Shown here piece by piece: positions 16,653-38,997 of a DNA stretch of 64,000 nucleotides. The DNA lies in assembly GCA_019686135.1 (NCBI GenBank), contig JADGHL010000012.1:1-64000 (forward strand). The letters run 5' to 3'. The notes beneath the pieces were generated by a model. It was not told the DNA's origin. It did not search any database and saw only the letters and a program-made list of their open reading frames with translations. Position 1 is the stretch's first letter; every line of letters begins with the position of its first letter. This DNA comes from Myxococcaceae bacterium (GTDB lineage Bacteria > Myxococcota > Myxococcia > Myxococcales > Myxococcaceae). The translations under genes and the position numbers were made by a program.

Positions 16653-17537
16653 GTGCCGATCCGCCTCGTCGTCACCGACATGGACAACACGCTGTATTCG
16701 TGGGTGAACTACATCGTCCCCGCGGTCGAGGCGATGGTCGAGGCGGTGGTGCAGGCCACCGGCTTCCCGAAAATCAAGGTCATCCAGTCGCTCAAGGCCG
16801 TCTACGAGAAGTACGAATCCAACGAGTATCCGTTCGCGCTGCAGGAGAGCTCGCTCTTCAAGGAGTTCCCCGAGTTCGGCAGCTTCGACAAGCTGGTCAT
16901 CCAGCCTGCGCAGGCGGCCTTCGCCACCGCGCGCCGGCGCTACCTCGAGCCGTTCCCGGGCGTGATGGAGACCCTGGTGGAGCTCCGGCGCCGCGGCATC
17001 CCAGTGGTGGCGCTCACCGACGCGCCGCGGAACCCCGCCGAACAGCGCGCGCGGCGGATGGAGCTCGATCAGCACCTCGCCGCGCTGTACACGCTGCCCG
17101 GCTTCGTGTTCCCCACCAACGAGGCGGGTGAAACGCTGGTCTCGAAGACCATTCAGGCGCGCGAGCGCGAGGGCCGTTACCGCGCCAAGTGCCCGGTGGT
17201 GGAGCTGCCGCGCGAGTTCGAGAAGCCGAACGAACAGGGCTACCTGCGGATCTGCGCGGACTTCAAGGTCGACCCGCGCGACACGCTGTTTGTCGGCGAC
17301 TCACTCAAGAAGGACATCGCGGTGGCGAAGAAGGTCGGCGCCATAGACGCCTTCGCCGAGTACGGGACCTACTACTCGCGCGAGTACCGCGAGCGCCTCG
17401 ACATCGTCTCCGCCGACTCCATCACCCGCCGCCACGCGGCGTCAGTCACCGAGGGCGAGACCCACGTGCCACAGGCGGCGACGCACCACCTATCGAATTT
17501 CAGTCAGGTGCTGCGGATCGTCGACGCGAGTCGGTAA
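16653..17537 (+). CDS. HAD-superfamily hydrolase
   Basis: A 294-residue haloacid-dehalogenase-type phosphatase. Motif I is DMDNTLYS (nucleophile and acid/base Asp), motif II VVALTDAP, a conserved Lys follows in EKPNEQGYL, and motif IV is DTLFVGDSLKKDI. A helical cap lies between motifs I and II (about residues 20-110). The GTG start gives an N-terminus MPIRLVVTDMDN typical of the family; upstream residues in frame are not conserved-looking. Substrate is unknown; a small phosphorylated metabolite is usual. A CGTCTNC heptamer array begins 2 nt after the stop. Confidence 0.85.
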   Translation: MPIRLVVTDMDNTLYSWVNYIVPAVEAMVEAVVQATGFPKIKVIQSLKAVYEKYESNEYPFALQESSLFKEFPEFGSFDKLVIQPAQAAFATARRRYLEPFPGVMETLVELRRRGIPVVALTDAPRNPAEQRARRMELDQHLAALYTLPGFVFPTNEAGETLVSKTIQAREREGRYRAKCPVVELPREFEKPNEQGYLRICADFKVDPRDTLFVGDSLKKDIAVAKKVGAIDAFAEYGTYYSREYRERLDIVSADSITRRHAASVTEGETHVPQAATHHLSNFSQVLRIVDASR

Positions 17538-17538
17538 C

Positions 17539-17580
17539 GGTCTGCCGTCTACCGTGTTCCGTCTACTTTTGGCCGTCTGC
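17539..17580 (+). repeat. CGTCTNC heptamer array 1
   Basis: Imperfect 7-bp units GGTCTGC, CGTCTAC, CGTGTTC, CGTCTAC, TTTTGGC, CGTCTGC run in phase directly after the HAD hydrolase stop codon. The same heptamer array sits after the stop codons at 19722 and 62961, so position as well as sequence is shared. Confidence 0.7.
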
Positions 17581-17640
17581 GGCTTGACGCTCCGGGACCC
17601 GGCTGCGATGAGGGGCGCGGACCTGCCGAGGAGCTCCCCG

Positions 17641-18108
17641 ATGGCCACGCCCCAGAAGATTACGCCCTTCCTCTGGTTCAACGATCAGGCCGAGGAGGCG
17701 GCGAAGTTCTACGTCACGCTCTTCGACGACTCGAAGATCCTCTCGGTGATGCCCGGCCCCCAGGGCAAGGCGATGGGCGTGCAGTTCCAGCTCGCCGGCA
17801 TCGTCTTCCAGGCGCTCAACGGCGGACCCGCCCACCAGCTCAACGAGGCCTTCTCGCTCTTCGTCACCTGCGAGGATCAACAGGAGGTGGATTCGCTCTG
17901 GGCCCGGCTCACCGCGAACGGCGGTCAGGAGTCGCGCTGCGGCTGGCTCAAGGATCGCTTCGGACTCTCCTGGCAGATCGTCCCGCGGCGCTTCATGGAG
18001 CTGGTGGGCGATCCCGACCGCACGAAGGCGGGCCGGGTGATGGAGGCGATGCTGAAGATGACGAAGTTCGACATCGCCGCGCTGGAGCGGGCGTACGCGG
18101 GCACCTGA
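17641..18108 (+). CDS. PhnB-like VOC-superfamily protein
   Basis: A 155-residue protein of the 3-demethylubiquinone-9 3-methyltransferase-like/PhnB branch of the glyoxalase (VOC) fold. Diagnostic stretches are TPFLWFNDQAEEAAKFYVTLF at the start, FQLAGIVFQALNGGP, and GWLKDRFGLSWQIVPRRF. ATG follows GAGGAG by 9 nt. Despite the family name, most members are uncharacterised, and no methyltransferase SAM site is present. It stands alone between the HAD and PHP genes on the same strand. Confidence 0.85.
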   Translation: MATPQKITPFLWFNDQAEEAAKFYVTLFDDSKILSVMPGPQGKAMGVQFQLAGIVFQALNGGPAHQLNEAFSLFVTCEDQQEVDSLWARLTANGGQESRCGWLKDRFGLSWQIVPRRFMELVGDPDRTKAGRVMEAMLKMTKFDIAALERAYAGT

Positions 18109-18153
18109 CGCGCGCGCCTTGGAGCCACTCACGCACCGGGGCACACTCGCCTC

Positions 18154-19722
18154 GTGAGCCGCGCACCGACTGCCTTCCGCTCCCTTCTTCCCATCGCCGT
18201 CGCGTTCACCCTGATCGCCCGCACCGGGAACGCCGAGCCGCTCGTCCTGGAGGGCGAAGTGCCCGACGACGGCGCGGCGTTCTTCTCCTTGCCCTTCGAG
18301 GTCCCGGCCGGGACGAAGGAGATCGAAGTCCGTCACGACGATCTCTCCGACCAGAACATCCTCGACTGGGGGCTCGAAGACCCAAAGCGCTTCCGGGGCT
18401 GGGGTGGTGGGAACACCGAGCCGGCGATCGTCGGAGAGGCGGCGGCGTCGCGCAGCTATCTGCCGGGGCCGCTGCCGGCGGGCACGTGGAAGGTGATCGT
18501 GGGCAAGGCGAAGATCGTCGACCCGCCCGCGCGCTACCACGTCGAAGTCGAGTTGCGCGGTGCGCCCACCCTCGCTCCCCAAACGGAACGCACGCCCTAT
18601 GTGCCTTCGCCACCGCTGAAGACCGGCGCGCGCTGGTACGCGGGCGACTTCCACGTCCACTCCTGGCAGAGCGGCGACGCGCACCCCACGCTGGATGAGA
18701 TCGCCGCGTTCGCGAAGAGCCGCGGGCTCGACTTCGTGGCGATCTCGGATCACAACACCGTCGCGCAGCTGGACTACCTGGTCGACGCGCAGTCACGCAG
18801 CCCCGATGTGCTGTTGATGCCCTCGGTGGAGTTCACCACCTACGCGGGCCACGCCAACGGGATCGGCGCCACGCGCTTCGTCGACTTCCGGCTGGCCGCG
18901 CAGGACGGCGGAATCGATGAGGCCGTGCGCCAGTTCCACGAGATGGGCGCGCTGTTCTCCGTGAACCACCCCGCGCTCGACCTCGGGACGCTGTGCATCG
19001 GGTGCAAGTGGGACCAGCCGCTCGATCCGCGGCAGATCGACGCGGTGGAGATCGAGACCGGCGGCTACGAGCAGGCGGGCGTGATCTTCCTGATTCCTGC
19101 GATGCAGTTCTGGGAGTCCGTGCTCCGGGTGAGGCCGCACACGCCGGCGATCGGCGGGAGCGACGATCACCTGGGCGGCGCGGGGGCCGATCCCGGCGAC
19201 AGCCCGATCGGCTCGCCCACGACGCTGGTGTGGGCCTCCGAGCTGTCGGCGGAGGCGATCCTCGATGGGATCCGCGCGGGGCGGACCGTCGTGAAGACGC
19301 AGGGCCCGGACGACCCGATGGTCGACCTTCGCGCCGGCGACGCGCGCGTGGGCGACACGGTGACGGGCAACGCTGCGCGGGGAGATCAAATCAAGCTCAC
19401 TGCGGTCATCACCGGCGCCGCCGGGCAACAGGCGCGCCTGGTCCGGAACGGCAAGGCGGAAGCGCCATTCGACGTGACGAGCGATCCGTTCACGTGGGAG
19501 CAGGAGGTAAGCCCGCCGGACTCCGGGGGTCAGGAGGATCGCTACCGGATCGAAGTGCTGGTCGACGGGAAGCCGCGGACGATCACCAGCCACCTCTACG
19601 TGGCGGCCGCGCCGCCCGAACCGGAACCGGGCTCCGAGGGCTGCGGGTGCGGCGTCGCGCCCGGCACGGCGATGGGCTGGGCGGTGGTGATGATGTTGAT
19701 GCGACGGCGGCGGGCGAGCTGA
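18154..19722 (+). CDS. CehA/McbA-type PHP metallohydrolase with MYXO-CTERM-like tail
   Basis: A 522-residue exported protein. After a signal peptide (FRSLLPIAVAFTLIARTGNA) comes a beta domain, then a PHP phosphoesterase-type domain with metal ligands in GDFHVHS, AISDHNT, SVNHPA and GGSDDHLG. It resembles CehA/McbA family hydrolases. The C-terminus has a Pro/Glu linker, GCGCG, a hydrophobic segment (GTAMGWAVVMMLM) and RRRR, the layout of a MYXO-CTERM sorting signal, so the protein is probably processed and anchored at the outer surface. GTG start. A heptamer array begins 2 nt after the stop. Confidence 0.85.
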   Translation: MSRAPTAFRSLLPIAVAFTLIARTGNAEPLVLEGEVPDDGAAFFSLPFEVPAGTKEIEVRHDDLSDQNILDWGLEDPKRFRGWGGGNTEPAIVGEAAASRSYLPGPLPAGTWKVIVGKAKIVDPPARYHVEVELRGAPTLAPQTERTPYVPSPPLKTGARWYAGDFHVHSWQSGDAHPTLDEIAAFAKSRGLDFVAISDHNTVAQLDYLVDAQSRSPDVLLMPSVEFTTYAGHANGIGATRFVDFRLAAQDGGIDEAVRQFHEMGALFSVNHPALDLGTLCIGCKWDQPLDPRQIDAVEIETGGYEQAGVIFLIPAMQFWESVLRVRPHTPAIGGSDDHLGGAGADPGDSPIGSPTTLVWASELSAEAILDGIRAGRTVVKTQGPDDPMVDLRAGDARVGDTVTGNAARGDQIKLTAVITGAAGQQARLVRNGKAEAPFDVTSDPFTWEQEVSPPDSGGQEDRYRIEVLVDGKPRTITSHLYVAAAPPEPEPGSEGCGCGVAPGTAMGWAVVMMLMRRRRAS

Positions 19723-27499: not shown

Positions 27500-28100
27500 T
27501 CGCATCCGAGGCCCCTCATCAGGTTGCCCGTCGAATCCGGTGGGCGATCGAGCCGCGCGGGCGCGGGCTCATTCAGACGGGTGTGATCTCGGCGGTGCCC
27601 GACTCGCCTGGCGGCGCCAACCTCCGCCATCGAGCGGCGCACCGTGGGCGACTCGGGCCGGCTCGCGCGCTACGAGGCGAAAACGTCGGCCGCTTGCCTC
27701 AACGTTGATTCGGATGCTGTCAGGCCGGGCCTCGCTCCTTCAGCTGCCCGTCGCATTCGGCGGGCGCTTAAAAGTCGTTGGCACGGACCGCATCCCGGGC
27801 GGGCCTCCCGCAAACGCGCCTGACTCGTCCAGCTGCGCCACATCTGCCACCCTGAGCAGCGCGCAGTGGGTGACCCTGCCCGCCTCGCGCGCGTCGTGAG
27901 GCGATCACGCAAGGTCGATCGCACCCATCGTTGTTCGATGCTCGATGCGCGGCTTCATCATGGTGCCCATCGCATCCGGTGGGCGATTGAGCGCGCAGGC
28001 GTGCGGTGCATCTCGGGCGGGCAGGACGCCGACGCCCTCGACTCGTTCAGCTCCGGCCCGGCTCGCGCGCGTCATATGCCGACAACGTTGCACACCTCCT
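27500..28100. repeat. Degenerate ~220-bp tandem repeat, three units
   Basis: Units are anchored by GCCCGTCGAATCCGGTGGGC (27526), GCCCGTCGCATTCGGCGGGC (27746) and GCCCATCGCATCCGGTGGGC (27965), spaced 220 and 219 bp. Further shared blocks are a GTGGGCGAC/GTGGGTGAC segment, CTCGCGCGC, a GAGGCGA block and an (A/G)TCTCGGGCGG block; unit three is shorter inside. The anchor can fold as a hairpin, with changes that keep pairing between units. No open frame runs through the units. Confidence 0.6.
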
Positions 28101-28580
28101 TCACGCTCGAGCGCCCACCGTCGTGGGGTCGCGACAACGGACGACGCCTGCCAAAAGGACCGGCGCGACGTGCTGCACGGTCGTGGGCGTGAGCGGCTCA
28201 ATGGAGCGTCGACGCGCGCGCTCCTCACGCTCGACGGCGAGTCCCCGGCAACTGGGTGCGCAGTCGCACTCTTCGCGCGATGGCCCTCGTGCTGGAGACC
28301 CGTGACGGCCCCGGCTGTCGCACCACGACATCGGCAATCCCACGACCGGCCAGGTCGCGTGACGCGGCTCCGCCTGCCCGCCTGCGTCCTCCACTGCGCG
28401 CGGCTGATTCGGCAACCGGGCGTGGCCTCCCTCCTCCGCCGCCCGGAATGCGGTCCGTTTCGTGCTGTCTCCTGCTCCCGCGCCGTGCGTTCGCGCGTTG
28501 CCCTGCACGCAATGCGAGTGCTCGGCGCGATTGGCGCGCGGTCGCGCACCGCAGTGTCGCGGCCACGGACAGGAGGCTGT
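28101..28580. other. Gene-free sequence upstream of the protease gene
   Basis: The frame of the protease is open here but codes for an Arg/Cys-rich sequence without a signal peptide or domain, unlike the real protein. No start with a ribosome binding site, tRNA or clear repeat was found; a weak echo of the 220-bp anchor may lie near 28180. Confidence 0.4.
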
Positions 28581-30818
28581 GTGGCAAGCAAGCTCGCTCC
28601 GGTGGCGATGGCTCTCGGCGTCGCCGCCGTGGTCGGCGGTTGTGGTGACGTGCAGCGCGATGGAGCACCCAGCGCGCCTCCGCTCGCGGTTTCGACGCCT
28701 GCGCCCACGCCGGCGGCCAGGCGAGCCCCGCCTCGTGCGGCCGATCCGGGGCACCCTCCCGGAAACCGTGCGCCGGAGATCGTCACGTTCAACTGCACGC
28801 CTTCGACCGGCACGGTGCCGCTCGACGTGACCTGCACCTGGGCGGTGCGCGATGCCGACGACGACCCGCTCACCTGTTCCTTCGATGGCGGCCGCGCGAA
28901 GCCGTGCGTAACGAACCGATCGGCGTCGCTTAGGATCTCCACTTCGGGCCAGCGCCACCTCACACTCCGCGTCGAAGACGGCCGCGGCGGCCAGGCGGAG
29001 GGCGACGTTCTCGTGGAGACCCGCGCCCCCAGTCAGCCGCCGGTCATCGCTTCGTTCACCGCGACGCCGGCCAGCGCCTTGGTGCCCTTCGAGGTGACAT
29101 TCTCCTGGCAAATCTCCGACCCCGAGGGCGACGCGCTCACCTGTCGCCTCGATCGGGACGGGGACGGCGTGGACGACGTCACCCTCTCCGACTGCACCTC
29201 CACGTCCACGACGCGCTTCACCTTCTCCACCGCGGGGAGCTGGCAGGCCCGGCTCACGGTTCTGGATTCGGCCGGCGGCCTGGCGACCCGCACCGTTTCC
29301 ATCACGGGAACGACGGCCCCGGCACTTTCGGTCGATGTCTCGATCGCTCGCGTCGACTGGGGCCAGAGCGTCATCTCCGAAACGCCGCGCCTCGTGGCAG
29401 GCAAGCCGGCGCTGCTCCGCGTCCACGTCCTCTCCAACGCCAGCCACACCTCGGGCATCACCGTTCGCGCCACCGGCACGCGCAACGGGACGCCGCTGGG
29501 CACGCTCACGCTCGCCGGGCCCACGACGCTGCCCACCGCCATCCAGGAGAGCTCTCTCTCGAAGAGCTTCACCGCGACGGTGCCAGCTTCCTGGATCGAA
29601 CCGGGACTCGAGCTCCAGGTACTGGCGGACGCAGACGGGGCGATCTCGGAGACGGATGAGACGAACAACGCCCGTGTGCTCACGCCGGACGTAGGCGCCG
29701 GGACGATCCTCTATTTCACGGCGGTGCCGGTCGTGCACCAGGGGACGACCGCGACGGTGCCATCGTCGTACGACTCCGATCTGGTGCGGTTCTGGCCCCT
29801 CCAATCCGTGCAGGGCACCACGCGCGCGCCGTACACCTGGACGGGGACGCTGAGCGGATCCAACTCCTCCGCGTGGAGCTCGCTGCTGCAGCAGATCGCC
29901 GCGGTGAGCGCCGCCGACGGGAGCCAGCGCTACTACTACGGCTTCGTCCACGTGGCGTACGGTTCGGGGATCGCAGGCATCGGATACATCGGTTCGCCTG
30001 CGGCGACCGGACGCGACGACTCGCTGGAGACGATGGTCCACGAGCTGGGCCACAACTTCGGCCGCCCGCACGCGCCCTGCGGCACCAGCGGCGATCCCAA
30101 CTTCCCGTACGCGGGCGGACGCATCGGCAGCTGGGGCTACGACGCGCAGACCGGCGCGCTCGTCTCGCCGTCCAGCCACTACGACCTGATGTCGTACTGC
30201 GACCCGGCCTGGATCTCCGACTACAACTACCGCGCGGCACAGAGCGCGCTCGAAGCGCATCCGCCCACCGCGTTCGCGATCGCCGGCAGCGGCCAGGCGC
30301 TCCTGCTCGTCAGCGGCCGAGTGATGGCGGACGGGACGATCGACCTGAGCCCGCTGGTCCGCTTCCACGGCCCGCTCGAGCACCACGTCGACGGGGAGTG
30401 GACGCTGCGGCTGCACACGGCCGACGGCACGGTGCGCGAGACGCGCTTCGGCACCGAACGGATCGATGAGATCGACGAGTCCCACTTCACGCTCGTCGTG
30501 CCCGATCCGGGGCCGCTGCGCGCCATCGAGATCGCCCGTCCCGGCGCCCCGCCCTTTCGCCGCGACGCGCCCGACACGCCGAAGGCTCTGTTCGAGCCCC
30601 GGGTGATCGAGACGGCGGAGGCGATCTCGCTCGAGTGGGACGTGGTGAATTGGCCGTATGCCAGCGTCGCCCACCTCGGCAAAACACGCACCACGCTCGC
30701 GCTGTGGCTCACCGGCGGCCGCGCCACGCTCCCCACCCACGGTTTGCCGCCCGACGGCGCGCTGGAGATCTCCCTCTCCGACGGCGTGAGCTCCATCACG
30801 CAGATCGTCGAGCGCTGA
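28581..30818 (+). CDS. Secreted metzincin-like metalloprotease with PKD and CARDB domains
   Basis: A 745-residue lipoprotein-like export (VVGGC). Two PKD-like domains (about 60-240), with WAVRDADDDPLTCSFDGG and WQISDPEGDALTCRLD, are followed by a CARDB-type domain (SIARVDWGQ...DADGAISETDETNN) and a protease domain with the zinc motif HELGHNFGRPH and a Met-turn-like SYDLMSYCD. The GTG at 28581 follows AGGAGG by only 4 nt; it was preferred because the signal peptide begins there. Expected role: extracellular protein degradation, fitting a predatory lifestyle. The C-terminal ~200 residues are beta-rich without a recognised domain. Confidence 0.85.
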   Translation: MASKLAPVAMALGVAAVVGGCGDVQRDGAPSAPPLAVSTPAPTPAARRAPPRAADPGHPPGNRAPEIVTFNCTPSTGTVPLDVTCTWAVRDADDDPLTCSFDGGRAKPCVTNRSASLRISTSGQRHLTLRVEDGRGGQAEGDVLVETRAPSQPPVIASFTATPASALVPFEVTFSWQISDPEGDALTCRLDRDGDGVDDVTLSDCTSTSTTRFTFSTAGSWQARLTVLDSAGGLATRTVSITGTTAPALSVDVSIARVDWGQSVISETPRLVAGKPALLRVHVLSNASHTSGITVRATGTRNGTPLGTLTLAGPTTLPTAIQESSLSKSFTATVPASWIEPGLELQVLADADGAISETDETNNARVLTPDVGAGTILYFTAVPVVHQGTTATVPSSYDSDLVRFWPLQSVQGTTRAPYTWTGTLSGSNSSAWSSLLQQIAAVSAADGSQRYYYGFVHVAYGSGIAGIGYIGSPAATGRDDSLETMVHELGHNFGRPHAPCGTSGDPNFPYAGGRIGSWGYDAQTGALVSPSSHYDLMSYCDPAWISDYNYRAAQSALEAHPPTAFAIAGSGQALLLVSGRVMADGTIDLSPLVRFHGPLEHHVDGEWTLRLHTADGTVRETRFGTERIDEIDESHFTLVVPDPGPLRAIEIARPGAPPFRRDAPDTPKALFEPRVIETAEAISLEWDVVNWPYASVAHLGKTRTTLALWLTGGRATLPTHGLPPDGALEISLSDGVSSITQIVER

Positions 30819-31000: not shown

Positions 31001-32182
31001 ATGAAGGTCACCACCTCCAGCACCCCGGTGATTTCGTCCGGCTCGTCCGGCGCGGCGGTGCGCGAGCTCCAACAGCTCCTCAAGGCGCGCGGCTTCAACC
31101 CGGGACCGATCGACGGCGTCTACGGCCCGAAGACCCGCGCGGCGGTCATCGCCTTCCAGAAGGCGAACGGTCTGGTGGCCGACGGCATCGCGGGCCCGAA
31201 GACCTGGGCCGCGCTTCGAAGCACTTCCACTTCGGCGAAGTCGAGCTCGGGCGGCGCGCAGCCGATGCTTCAGATGGGCTCGAAGGGCTCCGCGGTGGTC
31301 ACGCTCCAGAAGGCGCTCAAGGCGCAGGGGTTCAACCCGGGGGCGGCCGATGGCATCTTCGGCCCGAACACGCGCGCGGCGGTCATCGCGTTTCAGCGTG
31401 CGCGCGGGCTGACGGTGGACGGCATCGTGGGGCCGCAGACGTGGAAGGCGCTCGGCGCGTCGTCGGCATCGTCGTCGAAGCCGGCCGGTTCCTCCAAATC
31501 CAGCGGCTCGCAGCCGACGCTGAAGTACGGCTCCAAGGGCGCGGCGGTGGTGACGCTGCAGAAGACGCTGAAGGCGCGCGGGTTCGATCCCGGCCCGGCC
31601 GATGGAATCTTCGGCGCGAACACGCGCGCGGCGGTGCTGGCGTTCCAGGCGTCGCGTGGGATCGCCGTCGACGGCGTCGTGGGACCGCAGACGTGGAAGG
31701 AGCTCGCGAAGGCGGGGCCGGTCTCGGGGAACCCAAACATCGGCGGGTCCACGCTGCGCGAGAAGATCCTCAACCTGGCGCGCTCGCAGATCGGCACGCT
31801 CGAGTACGGGAACAACGGCGGGCCGGCGCTCAAGTACCAGAACTTCTTCGGCCGCGGCTACGAGCCGTGGTGCGCCGACTTCGTCTCGTGGGTGTTCACC
31901 AACGCCGGCAAGCCGTTCAATGACCCGTACTGCCCGTCGATCGTCAACAAGCTCAAGGCGATGGGGCACTGGAAGGGCAAGAGCAACCCGCAGCCGGGCG
32001 ACATGGTGATCTTCGACTGGGACGGCGGCCTGGCCGACCACATCGGCATCGTGGAGAAGGTGAACCCGGACGGCAGCATCGTCACCATCGAGGGCAACAC
32101 CACCAACCCGTCCACGGGCCAGCAGGGCGTGTGGCGGCGCACGCGCTACCTGTCGCAGATCGAAGGCTTCGGCTTCCCCTGA
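31001..32182 (+). CDS. Three PG-binding domains plus CHAP hydrolase
   Basis: A 393-residue cell-wall hydrolase. Three PG_binding_1 domains (about 14-70, 88-145, 170-225) share LK(A/T)(R/Q)GFxPGxxDGxFGxxTRAAVxAFQ; Ser-rich linkers (STSTSAKSSSGG, SSASSSKPAGSSKSSGS) separate them. The C-terminal CHAP domain has Cys in EPWCADFVSW, His in LADHIGIVE and an Asn/Glu in VTIEGNT. There is no N-terminal signal peptide, so export would need a non-Sec route or lysis. GAGGGGAGAGAACGCG precedes the ATG. It could act in self-lysis, sporulation or attack on other bacteria. Confidence 0.87.
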   Translation: MKVTTSSTPVISSGSSGAAVRELQQLLKARGFNPGPIDGVYGPKTRAAVIAFQKANGLVADGIAGPKTWAALRSTSTSAKSSSGGAQPMLQMGSKGSAVVTLQKALKAQGFNPGAADGIFGPNTRAAVIAFQRARGLTVDGIVGPQTWKALGASSASSSKPAGSSKSSGSQPTLKYGSKGAAVVTLQKTLKARGFDPGPADGIFGANTRAAVLAFQASRGIAVDGVVGPQTWKELAKAGPVSGNPNIGGSTLREKILNLARSQIGTLEYGNNGGPALKYQNFFGRGYEPWCADFVSWVFTNAGKPFNDPYCPSIVNKLKAMGHWKGKSNPQPGDMVIFDWDGGLADHIGIVEKVNPDGSIVTIEGNTTNPSTGQQGVWRRTRYLSQIEGFGFP

Positions 32183-32231
32183 GCGACTGCCGGGTTGGAC
32201 GGCCCGGGCCCGCTTGATAGGGGATCGGGCC

Positions 32232-32879
32232 ATGCCCCACCCGGATTGGAACGAGAGCTACCTGTCCGCGGCGCCTCCGCCGTGGGACACCGGCAGCGTC
32301 GAACCACAGCTGCTCGAGCTGTGGAACGCTCAGCGGCTCCCGCGCGGCCGCGCGCTGGAGGTGGGCTGCGACACGGGCACCAACGCGGTGTGGTTGGCGC
32401 AGCAAGGCTACGACGTGGTGGCCGTGGACATCGCGCCCGCGGCGATCGAACGGGCCAGGCGACGCGCCGCCGCGGCGAACGTCCGCTGCCGCTTCGCCGC
32501 GCTGGACTTTCTGAGCGATCGCATCGACGAGAGGCCGTTCGACCTGGTGTTCGACCTCGGCTGCTTCCACGTCTTCGACACGCCACAGGAGCAGCGCCGC
32601 TTCGCCGAACGCGTCGCCGGGCTGCTCGCGCCGAAGGGGCTGTGGGTGAGCCTCATCGGCAGCACCGAAGGTGGGCCGCGCGAAATGGGGCCGCCGCGCC
32701 GCTCCGCCCGGGACGTGGTGAACGCGATTGAGCCTTCACTGGAAATCCGTGAGCTGTCCGCGACGCACTTCGAGCTCGGACCGCTCGGGAACCCGGCCGC
32801 CTGGCGCTGCATCAGCGCGCGCCGCGAGGTGCCGGCGCAGCCCTCCACCGCGGACCGGATGGACGGGCCCCGCACTTGA
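32232..32879 (+). CDS. Class I SAM-dependent methyltransferase
   Basis: A 215-residue methyltransferase. Motif I is ALEVGCDTGTNAVWLAQQG, motif II VVAVDIAPAAIERAR, followed by ALDFLSD and LVFDLGCFHVFD. The opening DWNESYLSAAPPPWDTG resembles the thiopurine/tellurite-type methyltransferases (TPMT/TehB-like), which often have a P-W-D-x-G near the start. GCD replaces the usual GCG in motif I. The stop overlaps the next start by 4 bp, so it is probably co-translated with the polymerase-like gene. Substrate unknown. Confidence 0.82.
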   Translation: MPHPDWNESYLSAAPPPWDTGSVEPQLLELWNAQRLPRGRALEVGCDTGTNAVWLAQQGYDVVAVDIAPAAIERARRRAAAANVRCRFAALDFLSDRIDERPFDLVFDLGCFHVFDTPQEQRRFAERVAGLLAPKGLWVSLIGSTEGGPREMGPPRRSARDVVNAIEPSLEIRELSATHFELGPLGNPAAWRCISARREVPAQPSTADRMDGPRT

Positions 32880-35434
32880 GCGCCGCGCGGACCCTCATCG
32901 TCTCCGCCACGAACCTGCTCGCGCGCGGGTTCCTCGTCGTCCCCACGGATCGCAGGTCGCGCACCGGCGCGCCGGTGAACGGCCTCTATGCGGTGGCGCG
33001 CGCGGTGCTGCACGTCTTCGGCTGGAAGCAGCCGGCGCGCGCGGTGGCGATCGTCGATCGCGCCGGGCGCACCTGGCCCGAGCTGCTCGTGCCGCAGCTC
33101 GACGCGCTGCCTGTGCTGCTGCGGGCGCTCGGGCTCCATGTGGTGGAGGCCGCCGACGAACCGCACCTCGTCGCCAGCTACACGCGCGCGGCGCTGGATG
33201 CGGGCGACGACGTGGTGATCGCCGGCGTGGACAAGCGCTACGCCCAGCTCGTGAGTGAGCGGGTGTGGTGGTACGACGCCAACAAGGACGTCCGCTACAC
33301 GCCGGAGATCGTCCGAAAGCGCTTCGGCGTGGAGCCGGCCCGCGTGGGCGACTGGCTGGCGCTGGTGGGCGACGAGGACCAGGTCCCCGGCATCAGCGGC
33401 ATCGGCGCGAAGGGGGCGACCGGCCTGCTCACCGCCTTCGGCAACGTGGAGGAGGCGCTGGAGCATCTTTCCGAGCTGGACACGCGCGCACGCAAGGCGC
33501 TGGAGGCCGCGCGCGCCGAGCTGCCTCGCCACCTCGCGCACGCACGGCTCGGATCGCGGCCGCTCCCCGTGCCGCTTGCCGATTGCGCCTTCACGCCTCC
33601 CGACGCGCGCGCGCTCAACGCCGAGCTCGACAAGCTGGGCTTCGTCGAGCTTCTGTTGTCGACGGCGGCGACGACGCAGGTGACCGTCTGTGACACGCCC
33701 GATGCGTTGACCCCGGCGCTGGCCGCGTTCGGCGACGCGGCGGTGAGCGTGAACGCGCTCCTCGAAGATCAGGACGAGCAGGGACGGGAGGCGATCGAGG
33801 GCGTCGGGCTCTCCACGGGCGATGGCACCGCCGTCTACGTCCCGCGGCAGAGCGCCGCGTGGCCGACGCTGGTGGCCTGGCTGCAGGACGCCTCGGCGCC
33901 CAAAGCGGGACACGACCTCGGACCGATGCGGGTGGCCCTCCACCACGAGGGCGTGCAGATGGCGGGGCTGCGCGGCGACTCCGCCCATGCGTCCCACCTC
34001 ACGCAGCCGAGCGCCTGGGCGCCGCACGAGCTGCCGCTGGTCGCCCGGCACGTGCTGGGGCGTTCGCTCCCCGACGACGAGCAGATCCGCGCCACCGGAA
34101 CGCAGCGTCGGTCGTGGCACGCGCTCGGGACGCATGCCGCCGCGAAGGTGGCGGGCGAACGCGCCGATGCGTCGGCGGCGATCCTCCGGGCGCTGACGCC
34201 GAACATCGAGCGGCGGCTCATCGACGAGTACCTCGAACTCTCGGACACCCTGGTGCGGATGGAGCTGCACGGCGTCCAGGTGGACCTGGCGCAGCTCGAC
34301 CGTGCGGAGGTGGCGTTCGAACGGATCGGCCGCGAGCTGCAGGCGGAGATCGAGGCGCTCGCCGGACACCCGTTCAACATCAACTCCTCCGCGCAGCTCG
34401 GGCGCGTGCTGTTCGAGGAGCTGAAGCTGCCGGTGGTGAGCCACACCCGGACCGGGTTCAGCACCTCGAACGAGGCGCTCGAGCGCATCGAGCACGCGCA
34501 TCCGATCGTCGGGCTCGTTCTGCGCTGGCGGCTGTTGCGGCGGCTGGGCGACAACTGGGTGCGCGCGCTGCGCCGGAACGTGCACCCCGACGGCCGCGTG
34601 CACGCACGGTTTCATCCGGCGCGTTCGTTCTCCGGGCAGATCGTCTGCACCAACCCGGATTTGAGCCGCGTCCCCGGCCGCACGCCGGAGATGGCGGAGA
34701 TCCGCCGGGCCTTCGTGGCGCCGCCAGGGCGGCTGTTGATGTCGGTCGACTTCAACCAGCTCGGGCTCCATGTGCTGGCGCACCTCACGCGCGATCCCGC
34801 GCTGGTGGAGCCCTTGCGGCAGGGCGCGGACATGCACCGCCTCACCGCCGCCGCGGTGCTGGAGAAGCCCCCCGAATCGCTCACCGACGACGAGCGGCAG
34901 CTGGGCAAGGTCATCAACTTCGCCACCTTCGCAGGTCAGGGCGCGAGCGCGCTCGCGCTGCAGCTCGGCGTGAGCGCGGCGGAGGCGAAGGAGTACCTCG
35001 CGCGGTTCGATCGCCGTTACGCGAAGGTGCGCGCGTTCCAGGACGAACAGCTCAGGCTGGCGAAGGAACGCGGCTACATCGTCACGCTCGCCGGGCGCCG
35101 CTGGCCGATCGGCGGGCTCGAGTCGCTGGATCCGATGCTGCGCTCCTACGCGGAGCGGATGGCGCGGCGGGGCACGCACGAGGGCTCGGTGGCGGACGTC
35201 TCGCGCCGCGCCCTGCTGGAGGCGGACCGCGCCATCCGCAAGGCCGGCCTCTCCGCGTCTCCCATCGTGGAGGTCTTCGACGAGGTGCTCTTCGAAGTCG
35301 CGGAGGCGGAGCTGGAGGCGTGCGCGCGGGTCTGTTCGCACGCGATGCGCCACGCCTTCGAGCTGGAGGTCCCGCTCAAGGTCGGCGTCGAAGCCGGGCG
35401 CTCGTGGGCGGATCTGCAACCGCTGAAGCTGTGA
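32876..35434 (+). CDS. Divergent DNA polymerase I paralogue
   Basis: An 852-residue protein with the full Pol I plan: FEN/5'-nuclease-like (1-270), a degenerate 3'-exonuclease-like part (270-430) and a family A polymerase domain (430-852). Catalytic Asp are kept (D625 in VDFNQLGLH; D802-E803 in VFDEVLFEV), as are R674, K678 and F682 of motif B. However, motif A Glu and Arg are G630 and H632, motif B Tyr is A686 (NFATFAGQ), and motif C His is F801. In the nuclease, the first Asp is Ser10 (LIVSATN), DKD is DKR, and the paired acids are ADEP. It is unlikely to be the housekeeping enzyme; a second polA should exist. Altered or structural function is inferred. Confidence 0.85.
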   Translation: MSAARTLIVSATNLLARGFLVVPTDRRSRTGAPVNGLYAVARAVLHVFGWKQPARAVAIVDRAGRTWPELLVPQLDALPVLLRALGLHVVEAADEPHLVASYTRAALDAGDDVVIAGVDKRYAQLVSERVWWYDANKDVRYTPEIVRKRFGVEPARVGDWLALVGDEDQVPGISGIGAKGATGLLTAFGNVEEALEHLSELDTRARKALEAARAELPRHLAHARLGSRPLPVPLADCAFTPPDARALNAELDKLGFVELLLSTAATTQVTVCDTPDALTPALAAFGDAAVSVNALLEDQDEQGREAIEGVGLSTGDGTAVYVPRQSAAWPTLVAWLQDASAPKAGHDLGPMRVALHHEGVQMAGLRGDSAHASHLTQPSAWAPHELPLVARHVLGRSLPDDEQIRATGTQRRSWHALGTHAAAKVAGERADASAAILRALTPNIERRLIDEYLELSDTLVRMELHGVQVDLAQLDRAEVAFERIGRELQAEIEALAGHPFNINSSAQLGRVLFEELKLPVVSHTRTGFSTSNEALERIEHAHPIVGLVLRWRLLRRLGDNWVRALRRNVHPDGRVHARFHPARSFSGQIVCTNPDLSRVPGRTPEMAEIRRAFVAPPGRLLMSVDFNQLGLHVLAHLTRDPALVEPLRQGADMHRLTAAAVLEKPPESLTDDERQLGKVINFATFAGQGASALALQLGVSAAEAKEYLARFDRRYAKVRAFQDEQLRLAKERGYIVTLAGRRWPIGGLESLDPMLRSYAERMARRGTHEGSVADVSRRALLEADRAIRKAGLSASPIVEVFDEVLFEVAEAELEACARVCSHAMRHAFELEVPLKVGVEAGRSWADLQPLKL

Positions 35435-35541
35435 GCGCCGCTCCGCGCGAGGTGCAGAGCTCCCGCTGGCTCGAATGGTGGGGCAGAGACCACCTGCCCG
35501 CGCACGATGGAGCCCACCGCGCGGGTCCTTAGCCTTGCTGC

Positions 35542-36405
35542 ATGAGCTACCTGAAACTGAGGGATGGGGCGCGCCTCTTCTACAAGGACTGGGGCGCAGG
35601 ACAGCCGGTGGTGTTCTCGCACGGCTGGCCGCTGTGCGCGGATGCGTGGGACAACCAGATGATGTTCCTCGCCCGGCGCGGCTACCGGGTGATCGCCCAC
35701 GACCGCCGGGGCCATGGACGCTCGCAGCAGACCTGGCGCGGGCACGACATGGACACCTACGCGGACGATCTCGCGGAGCTGTTCGACCAGCTCGACCTGC
35801 AGGACGCGGTGCTGGTCGGCCACTCCACGGGCGGCGGCGAGGTCACCCGCTACATCGGCCGCCGCGGGACCCGGCGCGTCTCACGGGTGGTGCTGCTCAG
35901 CGCGGTGCCGCCGCTGATGCTCAAGACGGACGAGAACCCCGGCGGCTTGCCGCTCTCCTTGTTCGACGAGCTGCGCGCGAGCGTGCTTCGCAATCGCTCG
36001 CAGTTCCTCCGGGAGTTCGCGGTGCCCTTCTTCGGCTTCAACCGCCCGGGCGCGCAGGTGTCGCAGGCGCTGATCGACGCCTTCTGGTTCCTCGGGATGA
36101 TGGCGGGCGTCAACGCGGTCCACGACTGCATCCGCGCGTTCTCCGAGACGGACTTCCACGAGGACCTGAAGAAGATCGACGTCCCCACGCTGATCGCCCA
36201 CGGCGACGACGATCAGATCGTCCCCATCGCCGCGTCCGCAGAGCTGTCCGCGAAGATCATCCCCGGGGCGGTCCTCAAGGTCTACCCGGGCGCGCCGCAC
36301 GGCCTCGCCCAGACGATGCCGGACACCTTCAACCAGGACCTGCTTCAGTTCATCGAAGCCGGCCAGGTGGCGCCCACGGCGGAGGCGCCCGCCACGGTTC
36401 AGTAG
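35542..36405 (+). CDS. Alpha/beta hydrolase (cofactor-free haloperoxidase/esterase type)
   Basis: A 287-residue alpha/beta hydrolase. The triad is visible: nucleophile in [12 protein letters not shown], acid in [10 protein letters not shown], His in GAPHGLAQT. The oxyanion segment [15 protein letters not shown] and DRRGHGRS match the non-haem chloroperoxidase/aryl esterase group, most of which are esterases or perhydrolases. No signal peptide, so cytoplasmic. Its end overlaps the convergent next gene by 7 bp. Confidence 0.9.
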
Positions 36406-37694
36406 CTGAACCGAAGCATCGCCGCGCCGCCGGTGTACTGGTCCACGGCGCCAGACGCGTTGAACGTCGCGCCCTCCGCCGGCCGGAAGGTCAGGCGGTA
36501 GCGCGTGTAGTGGACCACGACGCGCAGCTCGAGGTGCCGGAGCAGCTTGTAGCCGAGCCCGCCCTGCGCCTCGAACGCGTTGCCGCCGTGGTCGGGGAAG
36601 AAGGCGTCGCTGCCGAGCTCGCCCAGCCCGAGCAGCTGCAGGTACGAGAGCCGCGCGAACAGCACGAACGGCCCGAGGTCGTCGAGCTCGGCCTCGGCCC
36701 CGGCGGTGAGCGCGCCGTAGCGGATGTTCGGCATCCCGGACAGCCGGGTCCCGTCCGGCGCCGCTCCGACTTCGAAGGTCGCCGCGCGGTAGCCGACGAT
36801 CGGCGCGAGCATCAGCTGGTCGCCGGGCCAGAAGTTCAACCGCGCCGCGAGGTCCAGCCGCGTCACGCGCGTGTCGTGGGCCACGTCGTTCTCGTCGATC
36901 GATCGCAGGAGCACCGCCTGCGCGTAGTCCGCCTCGATCCCCAGCCCGCCGGGCACCCCGCTGAAGATCGGCCGCAGCGGGTAGAGTTCCAGGTGCACCC
37001 GGGGCGCGAAGAACACCGGCTGCGTCTCGTAGGAGCGGAGGTTCGGCGCGCGCAGGTCCGTGTACTGATAGGAGCGGTGCACGAAGTCCGCCCCCGCCGC
37101 GGCGACGATGGTCGGGCGCGACGGCCGGCGGCGGTGCGCAGGCTCCGGCTCCTCTTCGGCCTGCTCCATTTCCCGCGGCGGCGGCGCTGGCTCCTCCACC
37201 ACGCGCGGCTTCTCCTCCTCTTTCGGAGGTTCCGGTGGCGGTTCGGGCGGTGGCTGCGGCGGCTCTTCGCGCCGGGTCACCTCGGGCGGCTGCTCTTCCT
37301 CCTCCTGTACGAAGTGCGCGGTGAGCGTCCGGAGGTTCCGGCGCGAGAGCATCCCGTTGCGCGCCAGCGGCAGCTTCTCCTGCCACAGCCGGCGGCCGCG
37401 GCGATCGAACGCGTCCACCCAGAGCACCCGCTTCGCCTTCGGGCCCTTCACCGCCGCCGTCAGCACGACATCGACGTCCTCGCGGCGCACCTTCTTCCAG
37501 TCCGGCCGTCCGCGGCGGGTGACCTTGCTTGCACTCACGCAGGTCTGCAGCGCGCAGACCGCGTCGGCGATCTGGTTGCGCGGGATGTTCGCGCGCGGGC
37601 CGGTGAAGGGAAGAACGCTGACCCTGGCCGCGCTCGCCGTGCCGCCGGCGAGGACCGCGAGGATCCCGAGCAGAAGGACGCCTGGTCGTTTCAC
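36399..37694 (-). CDS. Exported protein with Pro/Glu linker and C-terminal beta-barrel
   Basis: A 431-residue protein: signal peptide ([17 protein letters not shown]), an N-terminal domain starting [13 protein letters not shown] that recalls the TolB-N/FlgT-like fold seen in myxobacterial envelope proteins, a long Glu/Pro linker (about 130-190; [18 protein letters not shown]), and a C-terminal outer-membrane-barrel-like region ending in a terminal aromatic (AAMLRFSY). The GTG at 37694 is chosen for the signal peptide; an ATG 24 codons upstream would lie inside the preceding gene. The ThrE-like gene ends 40 bp upstream. The linker may span periplasm or peptidoglycan. Function unknown. Confidence 0.75.
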
Positions 37695-37734
37695 CCGCGC
37701 GAGGATAGAGCACCCCCGGCACGGAGGCGCGGAT

Positions 37735-38997
37735 TCAGAGCGCACGTTTCGCAGGGAGGATGGCATTCGCCAGCAGCAGCCCGGCCACCAGCGCCACCGC
37801 CACCAGCACCATGGTGAAGGCGGTCTGCACGCCGGAGACGACGTCGTGGGCCATCAGTGAAGAGAGGCTTCGAAAGCCGATGCTCCCCGGCACGAGCAGC
37901 ATAATGCCGGGGAACAGCGGCACGACCGTGGGCCGGTTGAGCACGCGCGCGTACAGGTTGCTGCAGAGCGTGACCACCAACGCGCCCAGGAACACGCCCA
38001 GCTCGGGCCCGAGGAACGCGCTGCCCACGCGGGCGCCGCAGAATCCGAGCACCGAGACGATGAGGATGTAGGGCAGGTCCTCCCGCCGCGCCCGGAAGAC
38101 GACGCCGAATGTCGCCGACGCACATCCCAGCGCCAGCGCCTGCACCCACAGCGGCAGCGCCACGGGCTCGACCGTGGGCGCGACGCCGAAGAACAGCTCG
38201 GTGCAGCGGTTGCCCAGCGCCACGCCGAAACCGAGCGTGAGGAACACCATGAACGCGGCGGTGATCCGCGCCGATCCGGAGGCGAGGTGTCCGTTGGCGA
38301 GCTCGGCGATCGCCACCACCAGGGTGTACCCGGGCAGAAGGGCGATGAGCCCGGCGAGCACCGCCACGTGCACCGACACCGGCCCGAACCGCAGCGCCGC
38401 GAGCGTGCTCACCACCGCCGCGCAGAACGCCGCCACCGGCTCGAACGCGCGCCAGCCGGTGCCGGAGCGGCTCCCCACCAGCGAGAGCAACCCGCTGATC
38501 AACCCGAGCACGCCCGCGGTGGCCACCTCGCGCCAGCCGCCGTTGAAGAAGACCGACGCGGCGGCGGAGTTGATGGCGTAGCAGGCGGTGGTGATCGCCG
38601 GGCCGTAGCGCGGCGGCGCGGCCTCGATCCGATCGATCCGCGCCATGCCCTCGTCGTGGGTGATCTCCCCGTGCGAGACCTGCATCGAGACCTGGTCGAG
38701 GTCAGTGAGCTTGCCGAGATCGGACGAAGCGCCGGTGACCCGCAGCAGGTACACATCCGGCCGGCTGCCGCGATCGAACTGCGCGAACAGCGCGGTGGGC
38801 GTGGAGAAGAAGGACGCGGTCAGTCCGAGCCGACGGCAGAGCGCCTCGAGGTGCTCTTCGAGCCGGTGCGCGGGCACGCCGCGGCGGTGGAGCGCGCGGC
38901 CGAGCCGCAAGAGGAAGGCTTCGGCGGACAGCTGCGGCGCGTCGCCATCGTCCTCGACGGCGTCGATCCTGGCGGAGGTCGGAGCGGGGGTGTTCAT
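37735..38997 (-). CDS. ThrE-family threonine/serine exporter
   Basis: A 420-residue inner-membrane protein with a soluble N-terminal DUF1212-like part (LGRALHRRGVPAHRLEEHLEALCRRLGL, TPTALFAQFD, and the DLGKLTDLDQV segment) followed by about ten membrane helices. The C-terminal DUF3815-like half carries RPTVVPLFPGIMLLVPGSIGF, a family hallmark. Members export threonine and serine or small peptides by proton antiport. The start was set at 38997, 17 bp after the M23 peptidase stop; a longer reading would overlap that gene. Confidence 0.9.
   Translation of the reverse strand: MNTPAPTSARIDAVEDDGDAPQLSAEAFLLRLGRALHRRGVPAHRLEEHLEALCRRLGLTASFFSTPTALFAQFDRGSRPDVYLLRVTGASSDLGKLTDLDQVSMQVSHGEITHDEGMARIDRIEAAPPRYGPAITTACYAINSAAASVFFNGGWREVATAGVLGLISGLLSLVGSRSGTGWRAFEPVAAFCAAVVSTLAALRFGPVSVHVAVLAGLIALLPGYTLVVAIAELANGHLASGSARITAAFMVFLTLGFGVALGNRCTELFFGVAPTVEPVALPLWVQALALGCASATFGVVFRARREDLPYILIVSVLGFCGARVGSAFLGPELGVFLGALVVTLCSNLYARVLNRPTVVPLFPGIMLLVPGSIGFRSLSSLMAHDVVSGVQTAFTMVLVAVALVAGLLLANAILPAKRAL

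Follow-up and report, generated by a model that had tools for sequence, protein, structure and literature searches.

A diverged copy of DNA polymerase I (Pol I) was found in the window (the whole 64,000-nucleotide stretch of Myxococcaceae DNA analyzed here), and its active-site residues suggested a possible natural polymerase that is error prone and tolerates ribonucleotides. In our best reading, to which we assign a probability of about 0.55, the protein would be a catalytically competent, nuclease-free A-family polymerase that arose from a duplicated Pol I and that has an open, permissive, low-fidelity, ribonucleotide-tolerant pocket. Because the E710G, Y766A, N845R, and Q849E replacements (Escherichia coli PolA numbering) occur with the nucleotidyl-transfer residues kept, we predicted that the enzyme is active but checks sugar and geometry less strictly. 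Nature here supplies a whole clade whose steric gate and base-pair checks are swapped for fixed alternatives, and thus a natural experiment on fidelity and sugar selection. The protein is also a candidate enzyme for repair synthesis with ribonucleotides in living bacteria and a possible starting scaffold for nucleotide-analogue polymerases.

Domain layout and the canonical polA

The open reading frame had a GC3 of 0.92, as in a real gene. Pfam matches to 5_3_exonuc_N, 5_3_exonuc, DNA_polI_exo1, and DNA_pol_A made up the complete Pol I layout. This layout and the retention of the catalytic D625 and D802 had been proposed in an initial annotation of the DNA, and both were confirmed by Pfam and by alignment with E. 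coli PolA. The features, numbered by residues of the window copy and with their E. coli PolA counterparts in E. coli numbering, were as follows.

32876..35434, + strand: diverged DNA polymerase I paralog, 852 aa (ORF, Pfam)
32876..33328, + strand: N-terminal 5' nuclease (FEN-like) domain, residues 1-151, predicted to be inactivated (Pfam 5_3_exonuc_N, alignment)
33329..33661, + strand: SAM-fold half of the 5' nuclease domain, residues 152-262 (Pfam 5_3_exonuc)
33662..34210, + strand: vestigial 3'-5' exonuclease-like domain, residues 263-445 (Pfam DNA_polI_exo1, alignment)
34295..35413, + strand: polymerase domain, DNA_pol_A (Pfam, AF2 model match to the Bacillus Pol I large fragment)
34748..34771, + strand: motif A, DFNQLGLH, residues 625-632; D625 kept, steric-gate Glu replaced by G630 and Arg by H632
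34895..34936, + strand: motif B/O helix, residues 674-687; R674, K678, and F682 kept, G763 replaced by A683 and Y766 by A686
35156..35182, + strand: minor-groove helix, RMARRGTHE, residues 761-769; R841 kept (R761), N845 replaced by R765, P847 by T767, M848 by H768, and Q849 by E769
35273..35284, + strand: motif C, VFDE, residues 800-803; H881 replaced by F801, catalytic D802 and E803 kept

The DNA_pol_A profile match scored 323.5 bits (E value, 2.2e-96; cut-off, 34.3 bits). An AlphaFold2 (AF2) model built from a 15-member family alignment had a mean pLDDT of 86, and the PDB entries that it matched best were those of full-length Pol I (6vde, Taq) and of the Bacillus large fragment; the TMt was ~0.9 over the polymerase part. 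The model indicated that the Pol I fold is kept. Its matches included a complex of the Bacillus E658A variant with rCTP (4dqq), in which we take E658 to be the steric-gate position. The profile match, the catalytic D705, R754, K758, and D882, and the fold placed the paralog in polymerase family A. The SAM-fold half kept the GDEDQ-PG-GIGAKGA helical DNA-binding region, as indicated by the invariant residues of the family alignment, and is probably a DNA-binding module.

A second, canonical polA was located in the same genome (G000:C225; PF00476 match at 17418-18539, 527 bits, against 326 bits for the window copy), which supported the view that the gene in the window is an additional copy. A canonical polA accompanied the paralog in all nine of the carriers inspected first. 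The paralog scored below the cut-offs of both NCBIfam Pol I equivalog models, TIGR00593 and NF004397, with 534.7 bits against 720 and 436.9 bits against 600, and the canonical PolA of the same genome passed both (1006 and 907 bits, respectively).

Residues kept and replaced

Residues were counted in 38 full-length paralog proteins, including that of the window, with E. coli PolA numbering, and 18 canonical PolA proteins of the same order were used for comparison. D705, Q708, H734, R754, K758, F762, R841, and D882 were kept in all 38 paralogs and E883 in 37. E710G, Y766A, N845R, P847T, M848H, and Q849E were fixed in every one; the R712 position held Tyr, His, or Phe, and R668 was variable. The replacements at G630, H632, and A686 of the window copy had been recognized in the initial annotation, and the alignment bore them out. 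It had overlooked N845R, P847T, M848H, and Q849E, as well as a deletion of the Y77-R81 segment that was present in all 38 proteins. The minor-groove helix carried a signature specific to the paralog, [AG]THE[GA]SV. Since a single turn of this helix separates R765 from E769, a salt bridge between them could replace the lost minor-groove contacts. In the case of motif C, the reported loss of His held for the window copy (F801) but was not uniform, as the H881 position was Leu in 24, His in 9, Val in 4, and Phe in 1 of the proteins.

In the 5' nuclease domain, D13 and D115 were lost, E113 and D116 were mostly lost, and D140 was Arg in all 38 paralogs; D138 was thus the only universal residue of the metal site found in an active 5'-3' nuclease (D13, E113, D115, D116, D138, and D140). 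The corresponding residues of the window copy were S10, D94, P96, H97, D119, and R121, and the S10, ADEP (93-96), and DKR (119-121) previously listed for this domain were each correct. These residues pointed to a dead 5' nuclease. The acids D355, E357, D424, and D501 of the 3' exonuclease were also missing from the window copy, as had been claimed, with N, L, M, and R in their places. However, the full set was likewise not kept in the 18 canonical PolA proteins, and the loss is therefore, by alignment, not part of the paralog's novelty. The earlier description of a protein altered in all three domains thus stands for the 5' nuclease and polymerase domains, but the canonical PolA of the lineage has a dead 3' exonuclease as well. 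Across the window's order, the 3'-5' exonuclease acids were absent from most canonical PolA proteins (e.g., L001 and L012-L032).

Compared to bacterial Pol I (PolA1; E. coli PolA, Taq, and Bacillus), the paralog had the same layout, fold, and catalytic Asp, Lys, and Arg residues, but it lacked the 5' nuclease metal site, and the conserved E710 and Y766 pocket was replaced along with N845 and Q849. Because its 5' nuclease domain appears dead in form and its scores fell below both equivalog thresholds, the paralog is, by these function-defining features, an A-family polymerase yet not a Pol I. The name DNA polymerase I, which homology would give it, would mislead.

The paralogs differed from one another by pairwise dS values of 0.43-0.78 and dN values of 0.11-0.29, with dN/dS roughly 0.14-0.39. 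In a roughly matched genome set, palm/fingers identity was 0.76 for the paralog and 0.72 for canonical PolA, and nuclease identity was 0.64 and 0.72, respectively. Constraint on the polymerase site is therefore at least as strong as in normal Pol I, whereas that on the nuclease is weaker, a pattern unlike general decay. The earlier suggestion of a selected, changed activity was well supported by these values, by the invariant residues, and by the palm/fingers being the most conserved part of the protein.

Predicted activity and alternatives

In the preferred reading, the kept nucleotidyl-transfer residues would allow template-directed primer extension, and the dismantling of the sugar check (E710) and of the checks on the shape of nascent and terminal base pairs (Y766, N845, and Q849) would leave an open pocket. 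Such a pocket would be expected to lower fidelity, to accept damaged or mismatched termini, and to permit substantial ribonucleotide incorporation, and the former 5' nuclease domain would act as a DNA-binding clamp. A likely use would be gap filling or lesion bypass under dNTP scarcity, alongside normal Pol I. The initial annotation had anticipated a changed activity, with lesion bypass, template handling, or DNA binding as examples, and the changed activity itself was supported, but it had overlooked that the motif A Glu is the steric gate of the A family, which makes ribonucleotide use a specific prediction.

Previous work on the replaced positions bears on this idea. Universal conservation across the A family has been ascribed to E710 and Y766; hydrogen bonded to each other, these residues shape the pocket for the nascent base pair, and changing them to Ala gives mutator enzymes with lower fidelity (PMC4882331). 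The N845A substitution lowers selectivity, and N845 has been suggested to sense the terminal base pair; R668 and Q849 make minor-groove contacts to the bases of that pair, and motif C His to Leu, Val, or Phe changes were selected in mismatch-discriminating Taq and Klenow variants (PMC3347538). Taq E615G, which is located at the E710 position, is a recurrent steric-gate mutation in polymerases evolved for rNTPs or 2'-O-methyl NTPs (PMC4215692, PMC9738464). The paralogs likewise have a small residue at the gate, as in ribonucleotide-incorporating polymerases. The engineered Taq E615G variants (AA40 and SFM19) share the Gly but are laboratory-made, and the listed variants lack an equivalent of Y766A, which the paralog has. 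Two positions count against the preferred reading: R668 varies among the paralogs, and the F762 position is Phe in many DNA polymerases and is also Phe here, so adaptation to rNTPs is not seen at every sugar-facing site. Among natural enzymes, mycobacterial DinB2 (Y family) is a gate-less polymerase for which ribonucleotide incorporation was measured (PMC4176160). The gate has been naturally lost in both proteins, but the polymerase families are unrelated.

It is possible, although we lean away from this idea, that the protein is a dNTP-using translesion or mismatch-extending polymerase whose pocket widened to take in damaged templates or distorted termini, with ribonucleotide tolerance incidental or absent. 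Y766, N845, and R668 are classical fidelity residues, a translesion enzyme would be expected to lack the acids of the 3' exonuclease and the 5' nuclease, as this one does, and Pol I without proofreading is described as joining translesion synthesis in other bacteria in a survey published in 2026 (PMC12926913). However, the sugar gate has been changed to the smallest residue in every ortholog, and a simple translesion role needs no such change.

We considered it unlikely that a cellular paralog evolved into a DNA-templated polymerase that prefers or freely uses ribonucleotides (i.e., an RNA-patch or priming polymerase). If this were true, natural evolution would have reached the steric-gate change that was engineered in Taq and is apparently present in T7-type RNA polymerases. 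The single-subunit T7-type enzymes are alike in having Gly at the steric-gate position, which we take to be G542 in T7 RNA polymerase; T7 RNA polymerase departs from the paralog in its motif B and in its apparatus for promoter binding.

A more doubtful proposal is that a dead or nearly dead Pol I copy persists because it serves as a scaffold, either DNA binding or regulatory, that might shield nicks or gaps. It would fit a nuclease domain that is non-catalytic by sequence yet retained and moderately conserved, as well as the retained helical DNA-binding region. In addition, the closed state of an E710A/Y766A double mutant was destabilized in simulations, and E710G with Y766A should destabilize the closed form in a similar way (PMC4882331); by this analogy, which also counts against the preferred reading, the paralog might have little or no activity if N845R and Q849E do not compensate. 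A scaffold, however, has no need for metal-binding aspartates and triphosphate-binding Arg and Lys residues, and D705, D882, K758, R754, and H734 were invariant in the 38 orthologs, with palm/fingers conservation above that of active PolA. Finally, a decaying pseudogene or an assembly or sequencing artifact has the many lost motifs as its sole point in favor and could be dismissed, given an intact frame and identical substitutions in 38 orthologs (from 15 genomes of the family, own genome included, and beyond), low dN/dS values, and a single clade with 100% support.

Phylogeny, distribution, and genomic context

The paralogs formed a single clade (100/100) on a stem of ~1.6 substitutions per site. 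A first tree, in which the sister group was absent, carried a long-branch warning, and the clade was then placed by adding the sister group and using a mixture model. The sister (pair support, 100/100) was an intact additional Pol I, with DWSQIELR as motif A, from other Myxococcota (L134-L139); the tested member passed the Pol I equivalog models. In this DW-type Pol I, the 5' nuclease acids, E710, Y766, N845, Q849, and H881 were intact. It shared N675D and G763A with the paralog, and these two changes were thus rejected as paralog specific and considered ancestral. We infer that a Pol I duplication was followed by N675D and G763A and then by loss of the nuclease acids, steric gate, and fidelity residues.

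The intact-looking DW-type Pol I (G161, G164, G163, G182, G162, and G185) was accompanied by a different PolA of full strength in several families of Myxococcota. Two of these genomes (G162 and G182) had a DW-type PolA, the altered paralog, and a third Pol I-like protein whose DNA_pol_A match was of full strength.

The paralog was present in 15 of the 96 genomes searched in its GTDB family, its own included, with 61-73% identity to the window copy, and a scan of ~85,000 species yielded 44 loci, which together with the window copy supplied the 38 full-length proteins tabulated. The carriers were labeled almost entirely as Myxococcota or Deltaproteobacteria (Archangium, Myxococcaceae, Labilithrix, Kofleriaceae, Polyangiaceae, and Sandaracinaceae), and a few had vaguer labels, such as "Proteobacteria bacterium." Profile searches at the class and phylum levels found nothing else at comparable scores beyond carriers of the same gene and the sister group. 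Within the window's class the paralog was scattered, which suggests that it was transferred or was lost more than once. A phage, plasmid, or viral origin was rejected: no relative was confirmed in viral contigs, and the phage and plasmid matches were all below 60% identity to the paralog (~27-32% among the matches listed).

In a survey of 3,070 complete genomes, the A-family polymerases of bacteria fall into four groups, PolA1, PolA2/APEX, PolA3, and a minor group resembling PolA1, with the 5' nuclease domain separating PolA1 from the other groups; a group like the paralog is not described in its main text (PMC12926913). As described there, PolA2/APEX of Actinobacteria is likewise a second A-family polymerase with a dead proofreading domain and is proposed to be of low fidelity, but it has no 5' nuclease domain and has a QxxLF beta-clamp motif in the exonuclease domain. 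In contrast, the paralog kept a nuclease domain, dead in form, had no conserved QxxLF in its exonuclease-like domain, and came from Myxococcota. No beta-clamp motif was conserved elsewhere; QLGLF in five orthologs was motif A. Shorter DNA_pol_A proteins (ORFs of 544-730 aa; match from approximately position 30-60) were observed at G182:C3:84536, G164:C52:78064, G161:C113:40683, and G185:C53:64979 (L154-L157) and are possibly PolA3-like.

Ku was found in 14 of 15 carriers and 39 of 81 non-carriers of the family (P = 0.0013) and, by genus, in 8 of 8 and 12 of 18 (P = 0.13); a Ku match was missing in 6 of 21 other carriers, and the named carriers were metagenome-assembled genomes throughout, whose completeness limits such co-occurrence statements. 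Enriched by genome but not significant by genus, a link to Ku and NHEJ is only suggestive, a lead and not evidence. Y-family (IMS) matches were uninformative because they were near-universal (91 of 96 family genomes). An anti-phage defense role was rejected, as the only match, to the DRT-associated PolA model RTasPolA, was weak.

There was no conserved neighbor around the 44 loci, and the surrounding genes thus offered no clue to function. In the window, the TTG start codon of the paralog overlapped the stop codon of a TPMT-like methyltransferase gene (32214-32879; TTGA), which suggests translational coupling in this genome; the overlapping gene was not found at the eight other loci compared. 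Downstream, a 780-aa ORF (35475-37817) matched nothing in Pfam and its GC3 profile was not that of a gene, and a real alpha/beta-hydrolase gene was located in another frame of that region (35542-36405). Upstream were genes for a protein with peptidoglycan-binding repeats and a CHAP domain (31001-32182) and an M66-like peptidase with PKD-like repeats (27945-30818), both probably secreted lytic enzymes.
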